Positions 32,920 through 37,207 of a stretch of DNA of 64,000 bases are shown here, piece after piece. Location of the stretch: positions 3,801,172 to 3,865,171 of the forward strand of contig NZ_CP102099.1 of the NCBI RefSeq assembly GCF_024582815.1, given 5' to 3'. This DNA comes from Acinetobacter colistiniresistens (GTDB lineage Bacteria; Pseudomonadota; Gammaproteobacteria; Pseudomonadales; Moraxellaceae). Positions within the stretch are counted from its first letter, which is position 1. Each line of letters opens with the position of its first letter. Both the position numbers and the translations under genes were made by a program. The notes beneath the pieces were generated by a model that did not search any database, was not told where the DNA came from, and saw only the letters and a list, made by a program, of their open reading frames with translations.

Positions 32920-33822
32920 TCAGAACTTTAGCGACAGACCGGCGCCATAGATCCAACCCGTTTTAGAGTCACTGGCCGTTTGCCAATTGGTCTGCTTACG
33001 CCCGTTACTATAAGCATAGCCAACATCAATAAAAGGCATGACGCGGTTCTTGACGATTTCATAGCGGGTTTTGACCCCCACTTCTGCATCGGCAAGACCG
33101 GTTTTAGTCGCATACTTGGATTCATCACGCAGTACCCATTCCATTTCCAGATAAGGCTGCATAATCAATTTTTGCGTCAACAACAGATCTCGTTCTGTTT
33201 CCAACACAAAGCGCCATTGTTGATTTTGTCCGATATACAGATGCGCATCGGTTTCAAAGAAATACTGGGCCATGCCATGTAAACCGACCACACCCTCAAA
33301 TTGCTCCTTATCTACTTCACGGTCAGGGTTATATCGGTAATTCACCCCTGCTTGTACATCCCAGAAATCTGCAATGTTTCGACTATATAACGCCGCCAGA
33401 CTTTGCTCCGATTTTTCTGACTCGGCTTTGGCATAATCGGCAAGGATGAATAATTTATTTTCATCGGTTCCCACCCAAGTTTTTAACTTGGATTTGAGTG
33501 TGCCCTGTCCATCCTCATCAAGTAGCCATTGCGTATCTAACTGTGTCGCCTGATAGATTTGCCCACCATGCTCCTTATAATGACCCGCATGCTCATCTTT
33601 ATTTGGCATCTGTGGAGGAATAGTTGAGCTTTGATGTTGCAAATGATCCATCGCAGAGGTAGCGCTCATGGGCATATTCTGCTGCGCCGGCATATCCATT
33701 TGCATCATTTGATCATGTCCTTCATGTGCAAAAGTGAATGCACTTAAAGAAGAAACCAATCCGCCCACCGCCAATAATTGTGTATATCGTTTCATCTTGG
33801 AAGATTGCTTAGTGATGTGCAT
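32920..33822 (-). CDS. copB: Copper resistance protein B, outer membrane
   Basis: PcoB/CopB family beta-barrel linked to copper export or sequestration. I take ATG 33822 (MHITKQSSKMKRYTQLL) because an AGGGAG site precedes it; this gives 300 residues. A signal peptide ends near FTFAHEGHD, followed by a Met/His-rich stretch (HDQMMQMDMPAQQNMP) likely to bind copper, then the barrel, with WDVQAGVNYRYNPD and a C-terminal Phe (AGLSLKF) typical of outer-membrane proteins. Its start overlaps the end of copA by 14 bases. Confidence 0.9.
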   Translation of the reverse strand: MHITKQSSKMKRYTQLLAVGGLVSSLSAFTFAHEGHDQMMQMDMPAQQNMPMSATSAMDHLQHQSSTIPPQMPNKDEHAGHYKEHGGQIYQATQLDTQWLLDEDGQGTLKSKLKTWVGTDENKLFILADYAKAESEKSEQSLAALYSRNIADFWDVQAGVNYRYNPDREVDKEQFEGVVGLHGMAQYFFETDAHLYIGQNQQWRFVLETERDLLLTQKLIMQPYLEMEWVLRDESKYATKTGLADAEVGVKTRYEIVKNRVMPFIDVGYAYSNGRKQTNWQTASDSKTGWIYGAGLSLKF

Positions 33823-35659
33823 GGCTCGCTCCCTGAGATGATTGAACTGGTGTTGTTTGTGCTGCTTTGTTGTCATCCACATTGGCAACAATTAACTTAC
33901 TCATCATGCCTGCACTCATGTGATACAACAGATGACAATGGATCGCCCATTCACCGATTTCATCCGCAGTCAATAAAGCCGTAACGGTCTTGCCTGGCGG
34001 CACAATCAAGGTATGTTTATTTGGCATATCTTGAGGTGCCTGACCATTTTCCAGCTGCATAAACATGCCATGTAAATGCATCGGATGCGCCATCATACTG
34101 TCATTGACAAATTTAAGACGGATACGTTCACCATAACGCACGGTTAAAGGCTTAAAGTCAGGATCACTAAACTTCTTACCATCAATGGTCCAGATATAAC
34201 GCTCCATGGTACCGCCCAAACGAATCACCACTTCACGTTCTGCTGGGCGACTATAGCTTTCAGGCTGCGGATTTAAGGATTGCAAATCTGCATAACTTAA
34301 GGCTTTATGCCCCGTAGGCGTTGCCGCATTGGCCCAGCCCTGTACGGTATCCGTATTTGATGTGTCCTTAGTTGTAGCTGCTTGATGCTGGCTATGATCC
34401 ATATTGCTCATATCCATTTGAGCATGTGCGCTATGATCCATCGTTGGCTGCGAAGTTGTTGCGGTTTTCGCTTGGTCTTGTGGCGTCTGGTGCTGGCTAT
34501 GATCCATCTTAGCCATATTCATTGGCTGATCTGAACCATGATTCATTTTGCTCATATCCATCTGACCATGTGCACCGTGATCCATGCCCATATCTTCCAT
34601 GGTCAACAAGGCACGTGGTCGCGCTTTAGGGATTTGAACTGCTTGGGTGTTGGGTGTCATGTCATTGTGCAATGACGCAATAGCAAAGCCCGTACGATCA
34701 ATCGACTCCGCTTCGATTTGATAATGGACCTGTTTCGGCTCAACCAATACATCATAAGTTTCGGCTGTTCCAATACGGAATTCATCCACAGGAACAGGTT
34801 TCACTGGCTGACCATCGGCACTGACCACGGTCATTTTTAAGTTGGGAATACGTACATCAAAGAAGGACATTGCCGATGCGTTAATAAAACGCAGGCGTAC
34901 TTTTTCTCCTGCTTTAAAAGCACCGGTCCAGTTTTGCTGTGGGGTCTGACCATTGACCAAGAAGGTATAGCCGTCTACATCTCCTATGTCAGTTTTGGCC
35001 ATACGCATCTGATTCCATGCGGAACGGTCTTGCCATGTAGCTTTTAAACCTTGCGTTTTAACCTGTTTCCAGACATCACCCAGTGTTTCTCGATGGTTTT
35101 GATAGTATTCAGCAGACTTTTTCAAATTCGCCATGATCTTGTCACTTTCCGTTTCATGGAAATCCGACAACATCACCACGTAGTCACGCTCTGCTTGTTC
35201 ATGTGCAGCAACAGGTTGCTTGCCTTTTGGATAAATCACCAACGCGCCATACAAACCGTCTTGTTCCTGTCCTTTGCTATGTGCGTGATACCAATAGGTG
35301 CCGTTTTGACGTACTTTAAAACGATATTCAAAACTGCCATTTGGCTTAATTCCTTGGAAGCCATTAAAACCAGGCACACCATCCATCAAACCTGGGAGTA
35401 GCAGTCCATGCCAATGCAAAGAAGTATCTTGATTTTTAAGCTGGTTATGCACATGAATTACCGCTTCATCACCCTCTTCAAACTCTAATAGCGGGGCGAT
35501 AAATTTACCGTTTACGGTAATGCGTTTGACGGGCTTACCCGTGACATTCACCATCCCTTGATTAATGTTCAGATGATATTCTTTAATTGCAGCCAGACTA
35601 TAAGGCGCAAACAATAGACTTAAGCTAGCAACAACGCCAGCGTATAGTTTTGAAGACAT
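33809..35659 (-). CDS. copA: Multicopper oxidase CopA (copper resistance protein A)
   Basis: Periplasmic oxidase that handles Cu(I). In 616 residues the four copper-binding segments are all present: LHWHG near 82-85, WYHAHSKG, HPMHLHGMF and HCHLLYHMSAGMMS near the C-terminus. A central Met/His-rich insert repeats MDHSQH/MDMSKMNH units, likely a copper store. The N-terminus (MSSKLYAGVVASLSLLFAPY) is an ordinary Sec-like signal without twin arginines, whereas many CopA proteins use Tat. Upstream is a Cys/His/Met-rich protein gene and downstream copB, together an operon. Confidence 0.93.
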   Translation of the reverse strand: MSSKLYAGVVASLSLLFAPYSLAAIKEYHLNINQGMVNVTGKPVKRITVNGKFIAPLLEFEEGDEAVIHVHNQLKNQDTSLHWHGLLLPGLMDGVPGFNGFQGIKPNGSFEYRFKVRQNGTYWYHAHSKGQEQDGLYGALVIYPKGKQPVAAHEQAERDYVVMLSDFHETESDKIMANLKKSAEYYQNHRETLGDVWKQVKTQGLKATWQDRSAWNQMRMAKTDIGDVDGYTFLVNGQTPQQNWTGAFKAGEKVRLRFINASAMSFFDVRIPNLKMTVVSADGQPVKPVPVDEFRIGTAETYDVLVEPKQVHYQIEAESIDRTGFAIASLHNDMTPNTQAVQIPKARPRALLTMEDMGMDHGAHGQMDMSKMNHGSDQPMNMAKMDHSQHQTPQDQAKTATTSQPTMDHSAHAQMDMSNMDHSQHQAATTKDTSNTDTVQGWANAATPTGHKALSYADLQSLNPQPESYSRPAEREVVIRLGGTMERYIWTIDGKKFSDPDFKPLTVRYGERIRLKFVNDSMMAHPMHLHGMFMQLENGQAPQDMPNKHTLIVPPGKTVTALLTADEIGEWAIHCHLLYHMSAGMMSKLIVANVDDNKAAQTTPVQSSQGASHAHH

Positions 35660-35728
35660 GATAATTTCCTAATCTGTTAACTTTTCAAATTGCTCTTTTC
35701 ATGGACAGAAAGAGCCTGTAAAGACAGA

Positions 35729-36151
35729 TTAGGCTTTAGGAGGGCGTAGAATCTCTTGCCAGTAGCCAGCAAGATGTCGAGCTTGATAATCCGTATTGGT
35801 ACGGGTATTCAGCTCTAAAAAAGGTGTAGCCCCTAAACTTGGGCCCTGCGGATCCAAAGCCAGATTAACGCTTTGACAATGCGAGATACTATTGCAGTCC
35901 TGACAATGTTGATTGTTATGTAGTTTCCCATCATGACATTGTGCTGAACGCAATGAATCTGTTTTCGATTGCATATGATGATGTTGATCCATCATTTGCT
36001 GATCATGACAAGCCATGCTTGGAATTGAAACTGAGCTGTTTTGATCGGATTGAATCGCTTGAACAGCAGCCACAGCCACGCCACTTCCCCCGATGAAAAA
36101 TATCATCAGGAATACAAACCACAGACGTTTGTATCGCTTAAGAAGTTGCAC
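35729..36151 (-). CDS. Cys/His/Met-rich periplasmic protein, DUF2946-like
   Basis: 140 residues starting with a basic stretch and one hydrophobic helix (about 11-30), then an exported part containing likely metal ligands: SMACHDQQMMDQHHHMQ and QCHDGKLHNNQHCQDCNS. The protein ends in LRPPKA, similar to the end typical of DUF2946 proteins that often stand in front of copA. As first gene of the copper operon it may bind or sense periplasmic copper. The family call is from memory and moderate. Confidence 0.75.
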   Translation of the reverse strand: MQLLKRYKRLWFVFLMIFFIGGSGVAVAAVQAIQSDQNSSVSIPSMACHDQQMMDQHHHMQSKTDSLRSAQCHDGKLHNNQHCQDCNSISHCQSVNLALDPQGPSLGATPFLELNTRTNTDYQARHLAGYWQEILRPPKA

Positions 36152-36350
36152 TTCATGTTCCTTGTTTCAATGATCAAAAAAGAATTTAGCCTAGCTAGGA
36201 TAAGTTTTTTTACAGTGATGCACAATCATCTTTGTATTTGAATTTCGATAATTGCAGCGACATCCCACCCTAAACTGCTGCTTTATCAAACGAACTGATC
36301 TACGAATAAGCACGAGTAAAAATAAAGCAAAATGAATAAGTTAATGCACA
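36152..36350. promoter_or_regulatory. Copper operon promoter region with CCTAGCTAGG palindrome
   Basis: On the minus strand TTGTGC, 17 bases, TATCCT forms a plausible -35/-10 pair. The perfect 10-bp palindrome CCTAGCTAGG (36190-36199) overlaps this -10 and the likely start, where a repressor or copper-responsive regulator could bind. No regulator gene (copR/copS, cueR) lies in the window. Role inferred. Confidence 0.4.
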
Positions 36351-36378
36351 AAAAAAGGACAGAAAACTGTCCTTTTTT
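36351..36378. terminator. Strong bidirectional terminator downstream of rpe
   Basis: AAAAAAGGACAG (36351-36362) pairs perfectly with CTGTCCTTTTTT (36367-36378) across an AAAA loop. For the minus strand it ends the rpe transcript about 145 bases after the rpe stop, leaving the DnaA-box array inside the 3' untranslated part. Confidence 0.85.
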
Positions 36379-36424
36379 GATTGTTTTGCTGTGAATATAA
36401 ACAACTGAAATCATTTTGTTTATT

Positions 36425-36507
36425 TTAACAACATCTTATCCACCTGCTTATCAACACGGTTATCCACCGAGTTATAAACAAAGTTATCCACAAGCTTATG
36501 TGAATAA
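36425..36507 (+). promoter_or_regulatory. Array of DnaA-box-like 9-mers at 12-bp pitch
   Basis: In direct orientation: TTAACAACA (36425), TTATCCACC (36436), TTATCAACA (36448), TTATCCACC (36460), TTATAAACA (36472), TTATCCACA (36484); then one inverted copy, TTATTCACA read on the minus strand (36507-36499). Starts from 36436 to 36484 are exactly 12 bases apart, with 3-base spacers TGC, CGG, GAG, AAG. TTATCCACA is the strong consensus and the others differ at one or two positions. No replication gene is near, so a datA/DARS-like control site is more likely than an origin. Confidence 0.65.
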
Positions 36508-36520
36508 TAGAATGAAAATA

Positions 36521-37207
36521 CTAAACTTGTGTTGCACCAACTTGAGCCAGTTCTGCACGCATTTTATCAATTACAGTCTTATAGTCAGGTTGACCAAAAA
36601 TCGCTGAGCCTGCGACAAACATATCTGCACCCGCCTCTGCAATTTCACGAATATTGGCTGGCCCGACACCACCATCGACTTCTAAACGGATATCGCGACC
36701 ACTGGCATCAATAATCTGACGTGCTTGGCGTAATTTTTCCAACGTCATTGGAATGAATTTTTGCCCGCCAAAACCAGGGTTAACACTCATCAATAAAATT
36801 TGATCGACTTTATCCAGCACATAATCAAGATAGTGCAACGGCGTTGCTGGATTGAAAACCAAACCGGCCTTGGCACCACCAGCCTTAATCAACTGCAAAG
36901 AACGGTCAATATGATCGGTTGCTTCAGGATGGAAGGTAATAATGTCTGCACCAGCATCCAAGAAATCGCCAATCATACGATCAACAGGAGATACCATCAG
37001 ATGCACATCAATCGGCGCTTTGATACCATAGTTTTTCAGGGCCTTACATACCCCTGCACCAAAAGTCAGGTTAGGTACATAGTGGTTATCCATCACATCA
37101 AAATGTACAACGTCTGCACCTGCAGCTAGCACTTTTTCTACATCTTCACCTAAACGTGCAAAATCAGCAGATAAAATCGAAGGTGCAATTAAATAAGGCT
37201 TGGACAT
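36521..37207 (-). CDS. rpe: Ribulose-phosphate 3-epimerase
   Basis: Pentose-phosphate enzyme interconverting ribulose 5-phosphate and xylulose 5-phosphate. The frame extends to 37246, but ATG 37207 ([20 protein letters not shown]) fits the family start and has an AGG site, giving 228 residues. Motifs: [37 protein letters not shown] and the C-terminal phosphate loop [19 protein letters not shown]. It is a single-gene unit; the DnaA-box array begins 14 bases after its stop. Confidence 0.96.

Follow-up and report, generated by a model that had tools for sequence, protein, structure and literature searches.

DnaA-type boxes that follow each other at exactly regular steps behind rpe in Acinetobacter colistiniresistens raise the question whether they form an element that acts on replication, and if so in what manner, or whether they are a repeat of another kind. 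We analysed the boxes within a stretch of 64 kb (the window, i.e. the whole of the DNA that was presented) and in related genomes. As a DnaA element the array is well supported; together with a partner elsewhere on the chromosome it looks like an undescribed control on the time at which the chromosome is copied.

The box array behind rpe

The original prediction placed six direct boxes and one inverted box, with one strong DnaA consensus among them, in the 3' untranslated part of rpe. All were found at their predicted positions, the 12-bp steps are exact, and a non-coding DnaA-box element indeed occupies that part (Table 1). The array proper consists of five direct DnaA-type 9-mers on the + strand (36436-36492), the last of which is TTATCCACA, the DnaA consensus that is also used in the literature. 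The rpe stop codon lies on one side of the array and a terminator-like hairpin on the other; because rpe lies on the minus strand, the rpe transcript would cross the array. The summed match of the five boxes to TTATCCACA is 40 out of 45 at period 12; the best five-box run at any other period (9 to 24) scored 31, at period 24, which is the harmonic, and the best score among 200 dinucleotide shuffles of the whole window was 29. Single TTWTNCACA boxes occur in the window at chance frequency (13 found, 11.9 expected) and the signal therefore resides in the phasing. Promoter-like sites in the rpe region were likewise at chance level, and the source genome contains one copy of the stretch. A gene encoding a copA-like multicopper oxidase (Pfam) and copper-type genes adjoin the array (window 32920-36151), in an order common to several relatives.

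Table 1. Features of the rpe region (window coordinates) and of a related array in the sister genus
Feature	Position	Strand	Basis or conservation
Weak box -4, TTATCCACC	36436..36444	+	Position; in-phase conservation
Weak box -3, TTATCAACA	36448..36456	+	Position; position 6 is the sole deviation in 73/87 rows
Weak box -2, TTATCCACC	36460..36468	+	Position; conservation; weak-box count
Weak box -1, TTATAAACA	36472..36480	+	Position; conservation; weak-box count
Anchor box, perfect DnaA consensus TTATCCACA	36484..36492	+	Perfect in 87/87 rows after registration
Out-of-phase box TTAACAACA, 11 bp before the array	36425..36433	+	Mostly without conservation
Inverted box TTATTCACA	36499..36507	-	Mostly without conservation
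AT-rich element flanking the array at constant spacing to the anchor; resembles an IHF site in some genomes of the genus	36398..36424	+	Offset -86 in 81/87 rows
Hairpin resembling a terminator, with A and T tracts, on the side of the array away from rpe	36351..36378	. (reported on +)	
rpe, ribulose-phosphate 3-epimerase	36521..37207	-	Pfam PF00834; 3' untranslated part contains the array
Array by the ribonucleotide-reductase gene, sister genus (g10)	L323:2999-3054 and L325:2933-2988		Pfam for one of the two

The prediction had named conservation of the 12-bp phase in relatives as a check, and the phase proved to be kept: by the five-box score the array is present in 87 of 110 rpe 3' flanks of the genus, though 23 are without it (one of these, L226, is interrupted by N). 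The flanks were taken from 110 of the 147 genomes with rpe (the 30 closest and 80 hand-picked, near-duplicates skipped). With run length as the measure, at least four good boxes were found in 86 of the 110; the 87 rows include one with three good boxes (L187) and two with a weaker outer box (L179, L201). A genus-wide search for four boxes spaced at 12 bp, with three mismatches allowed at most, gave a match somewhere in 144 of 149 genomes, and the reversed pattern matched in two (G097 and G148, one match each). The first tally is an upper bound for arrays, because it includes a third recurrent set of three-mismatch sequences (TTTTGCAAAAGCTTTTGTACAATATTTTCAACATC and variants) that lies off the box consensus and was judged by eye to be a chance repeat.

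A perfect TTATCCACA anchor is found at or near the 3' end of the array in all 87 rows (in five of them after the register was shifted to the nearest perfect box), and is followed by a further in-phase box in eight. All four pre-anchor boxes match at six or more of nine positions in 84 rows. Mean information amounts to 1.59 bits for the box columns, 0.93 for the spacers and 0.30 for the sequence past the anchor. The conserved unit is the set of five in-phase boxes, and the count of six direct boxes and one inverted box stands for that part only: the place of TTAACAACA holds a box with at most two mismatches in 27 of 87 rows, and the place of TTATTCACA holds an inverted box with at most one mismatch in 10 of 87. 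As seen by eye, a hairpin of varying sequence is present at the same place in most rows.

The AT-rich element before the array keeps its distance exactly in the large majority of the rows (Table 1); its pattern was derived from the same alignment, and control scores in the recD flanks were 11-15 out of 21. The core of the IHF site is YAANNNNTTGAT. This core occurs exactly in the flanking element of 37 of the 87 rows, and only twice elsewhere in the same stretches; no exact core was found in the flanking element of the source genome, the recD arrays have no IHF-like site in a shared position nearby, and an IHF-like site at the rpe array is only partly supported. A scan against Rfam gave no match above cut-off near the array and four tRNAs elsewhere in the window. 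Sub-threshold matches to the sRNA families STnc40 and sRNA71 (window 36348-36435, minus strand) extend over the hairpin and the flanking element and are probably caused by the hairpin.

A second array at recD and the strong-plus-weak design

The four-box pattern gave six matches in the source genome, at two places only: rpe and the junction of recB and recD. The second array has the same design and overlaps the start of recD (C1:317536-317604, i.e. L084:4037-4105; gene families by Pfam), with a best four-box run of 32 out of 36 at 12 bp. We sampled 90 of 148 recD starts (hand-picked, near-duplicates skipped); three or more in-phase boxes are present in 88 of them, and five to seven in 56. This array is largely coding. 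The codon inside its anchor on the recD strand is GTG in 84 of 88 rows, and in the source genome the recD frame opens at that GTG; in A. baumannii-like genomes it opens further in, and the first open start lies inside another box. The N-terminus of RecD is a repeat of VDN/VDK type that is encoded by the boxes and varies with them; in 8 of 88 recD arrays an in-frame stop occurs inside the repeat within 20 codons, with the boxes retained. Both arrays are absent from two genomes (G001, G077) as read, which together with the 23 rpe flanks without an array implies that the array is not essential to the genus. In a comparison of box number that covered 98 recD loci (the 90 and eight further ones), seven or eight recD boxes were counted in 4 of 13 genomes without the rpe array (L041, L042, L045, L051) vs 2 of 71 with it; that a longer recD array offsets a lost rpe array is a lead only, from counts that ignore kinship.

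At both loci the non-anchor boxes are hardly ever perfect. At rpe 1 of 272 is (68 distinct sequences), vs 33.9 expected if the columns were independent, and at recD 4 of 264 vs 23.0; these expectations ignore kinship, which inflates the test, and two recD rows without an array (L269, L287) had been removed before counting. The recD anchor was not selected for perfection; among 66 distinct sequences it matches the consensus fully in 46 and with at most one mismatch in 64. In box -4 the only mismatch is at position 9 in 27 rows and at position 8 in 26, and 14 rows differ from the consensus at positions 1 and 8; the faulty base thus shifts between lineages and the weakness persists. The non-anchor boxes are held below consensus, as expected for sites that would be filled only with a neighbour's help. 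What defines a low-affinity array of oriC type, a strong site with direct weak sites at fixed short gaps (3 bp), is found here. In the E. coli oriC, weak sites in unidirectional arrays are described as being filled with the aid of a neighbour that is already occupied, the process setting out from a strong site at a distance of 3 bp (PMC4451416).

Chromosomal position and likeness to known DnaA-box loci

The DnaA of the source genome, the presumed binder, aligns nearly end to end with that of E. coli (48% identity) and keeps NVRELEGALN and GGRDH(S/T)TV, which we take to be the sensor-2 and box-recognition stretches. The distance of the arrays from dnaA was determined in 19 genomes (the source and 18 others), from listed coordinates of which some are approximate to about 200 bp and with contigs assumed to be circular. 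In all 19 the rpe array is found at 566-800 kb from dnaA (15.1-27.3% of the replicon) and the recD array at 289-451 kb (9.4-17.4%), and both read towards dnaA. At either locus the array lies on the other replication arm in four genomes, with distance and polarity retained. At these distances both arrays would be copied early after initiation. Origin-centred inversions preserve the distance of any gene, and most genes of these chromosomes would show such constancy, so that the constant distance fits selection on dosage without proving it. For datA, DARS1 and DARS2 of E. coli, distances are likewise reported to be conserved and thought to matter via copy number (PMC4585315).

The layout may be compared with that of the E. 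coli loci at which DnaA assembles. The right half of oriC, with the strong box R4 (TTATCCACA) and the weak sites C1, I3, C2 and C3, reads TTGATCCAA-GC-TTCCTGACA-GAG-TTATCCACA in the E. coli sequence, with the same polarity as the arrays here. Its strong box is preceded on the 5' side by weak sites in direct orientation, the closest of them at 3 bp (PMC4451416); the subsequent gaps are 2 bp, whereas the gaps here are 3 bp throughout. Unlike oriC the arrays are not at an origin, and their weak sites are mostly one or two bases off the consensus.

The likeness to datA is that of a DnaA-box cluster away from the origin, which in the case of rpe is also outside coding sequence. The boxes essential to datA run in one direction, as do those of the arrays, and ATP-DnaA oligomers at datA hydrolyse ATP (PMC5742627). 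The same source puts datA at 94.7 and oriC at 84.6 min, about a tenth of the chromosome apart, and the arrays are comparably placed. It also describes an IHF site between the datA boxes, whereas the IHF-like core flanks the boxes here. Further differences are that datA is without uniform 12-bp phase (best four-box run 22 out of 36, vs 32 out of 36 for the recD array of the source genome) and that it adjoins tRNA-Gly genes, and the arrays adjoin rpe and recD. No sequence match to the arrays was found in E. coli genomes. By analogy the arrays may work like datA without being datA, common descent not having been recovered. Chromosomal DnaA-box clusters analogous to datA that restrain initiation have also been reported for Bacillus subtilis and Streptomyces (PMC5742627), the likeness being one of function.

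Outside the genus, phased runs of three boxes are widespread among the bacterial and viral-contig matches listed and three boxes alone are therefore not specific. A dnaA homologue is present in 17 of 80 loci of other bacteria with three boxes in 12-bp phase, which is far more than chance would give for stretches no longer than 8 kb. Runs of this kind directly precede dnaA in three other genera of the family (L324, L326, L330, L331); the dnaA region of Acinetobacter contains scattered boxes in both directions, without a phased run. A sample of 368 other genomes of the class, searched with at most two mismatches (stricter than in the genus), gave five weak matches: one adjoins dnaA, as was verified (G338), a second, from a congener (G477), resembles it in sequence, two or three DnaA-like boxes being present in each, and the other three were unrelated repeats by eye. 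Single three-mismatch matches were found in many genomes of the family outside the genus, a subset of which was read. In the sister genus (g10) the start of recD carries an array of seven boxes in all three genomes read, and in two of these genomes a run of boxes mostly at 12 bp also occurs between genes for a ribonucleotide reductase and a response regulator.

Proposed function and its alternatives

The reading that we prefer, at a probability only slightly better than even (about 0.55), is that the array would be an origin-distal platform for ATP-DnaA that restrains re-initiation. DnaA would bind the strong anchor first, and a head-to-tail oligomer of ATP-DnaA would then grow from it, one protomer for each next direct box 12 bp away, the four weak boxes having too little affinity to be filled without a neighbour. 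The partner at the start of recD, of like design, would do the same. Given their fairly constant distance from dnaA/oriC, both arrays would double early in a replication round; the duplicated arrays would titrate ATP-DnaA, and the oligomer might also hydrolyse its ATP, so that less ATP-DnaA would be free; the reduced level would damp re-initiation, as datA does. Nucleation at the anchor, ATP-dependent growth and a negative effect are proposed because the polarity matches that of oriC and the direction of the boxes that of datA. To the directly observed sequence, phase, conservation, strong-plus-weak design, occurrence at two loci, distance and polarity we thereby add by inference DnaA as the binder, its oligomer and the negative effect on initiation. 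Of the replication-control element that had been predicted, the DnaA boxes and, as the best of the readings proposed, the likeness to datA are supported, and its DARS-like and cryptic-origin forms are not; nor is the element a homologue of datA, considering the lack of a match in E. coli, the other spacing and the flanking position of the IHF-like site.

An unlikely alternative is that DnaA filaments act mainly on local transcription, as a roadblock within the 3' untranslated region behind rpe and where recB meets recD. It would tie the supply of RecD and the ends of rpe transcripts to the state of DnaA, transcription would be expected to cover both arrays, the GTG that is read as RecD start falls within the anchor in 84 of 88 rows, a similar array stands beside the ribonucleotide reductase gene in the sister genus, and DnaA binding in datA is reported to attenuate read-through transcription in E. 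coli (PMC10950094). However, neither array is at a recognisable promoter, no need common to rpe and recBD is obvious, and the distance to the origin would be irrelevant.

We consider it improbable that the array is not a DnaA element and would instead be a coding or other repeat, or the site of another protein. The step of 12 is a multiple of 3, each strand has one frame that runs through the array without a stop (83 and 84 of 87 rows), and much of the recD repeat is translated; yet the open frames are a consequence of the box sequence, their extents are variable (33 and 44 distinct pairs in 87 rows), stops interrupt some of the recD arrays, and phased runs are enriched beside dnaA in other bacteria. 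Coding readings, with VDN/VDK from the minus strand or YPP from the plus strand, were rejected on account of the variable frame extents and of the wobble columns, which in the sole conserved open frame at rpe rank with the most conserved ones (2.00 and 1.39 bits). As the phase at rpe, without a conserved protein, is as strict as at recD and the wobble columns are conserved, the object of selection is the DNA and not a protein. The check for a coding pattern that accompanied the original prediction thus turned out in favour of the array.

A DARS-like site that recharges ADP-DnaA is very improbable: DARS1 and DARS2 of E. coli are likewise off-origin DnaA-box loci that tune DnaA, and the cluster here has a conserved place, but the DARS cores are described as head-to-head and as favouring ADP-DnaA (PMC5742627), whereas the boxes here run in one direction and the rarely kept inverted box provides no conserved head-to-head pair. 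Hardly credible is a cryptic or back-up origin, for which direct boxes next to an AT-rich stretch and the three-box phased runs at oriC of relatives might speak, since the GC skew keeps one sign over all eight 8-kb steps of the window, an oriC-like cluster of scattered boxes stands at dnaA about 750 kb away in the source genome, and no gene for an initiator or helicase loader was identified beside the array, which lies neither at a skew switch nor beside dnaA.

The proposed ATP-DnaA platform bears on the problem of how initiation is kept to once per cycle without SeqA, and of the shares of titration and ATP hydrolysis in it. SeqA was not found in any of 60 genomes of the genus in a search in which E. 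coli was the sole positive among 14 control genomes; other controls that act after initiation would therefore carry more weight. A wider reading, which we put forward as doubtful, is that Acinetobacter and its sister genus (the SeqA search covered Acinetobacter genomes) control initiation via an origin-distal ATP-DnaA filament platform of their own, made up of strong-plus-weak arrays in uniform phase at a pair of chromosomal sites; one of these would have reshaped the N-terminus of RecD and would link both the supply of a recombination nuclease and initiation to the same state of DnaA. The arrays are compact and widely conserved, have built-in handles (phase, anchor and weak boxes) and occur in a medically important genus with tractable laboratory strains. 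That weak boxes swap their deviant base and yet hardly ever reach the consensus would be an unusually direct sign of selection for low affinity at a site away from an origin. No description of phased DnaA-box arrays in Acinetobacter was found in the literature searched (titles and starts of abstracts, with subscription papers and preprints largely outside). An enrichment of DnaA boxes near oriC has been reported in E. coli as a titration trait, in a paper whose main text does not mention Acinetobacter (PMC12371093).

Array-like DNA in plasmid and phage records is, as far as read, DNA of the rpe locus, with one microvirus excepted. Five PLSDB records (0.66-4.1 Mb) carry the locus as chromosomes do and their plasmid labels look wrong, as does the phage label of CAKLQF020000034.1, which carries copA, copB and rpe. 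Viral contigs with three perfect boxes at 12 bp account for at least 120 stretches. Five perfect TTATCCACA boxes at steps of 11-12 bp (1501-1555) adjoin the replication initiator gene of the microvirus (PQ006258.1, bajarodmic virus 162).
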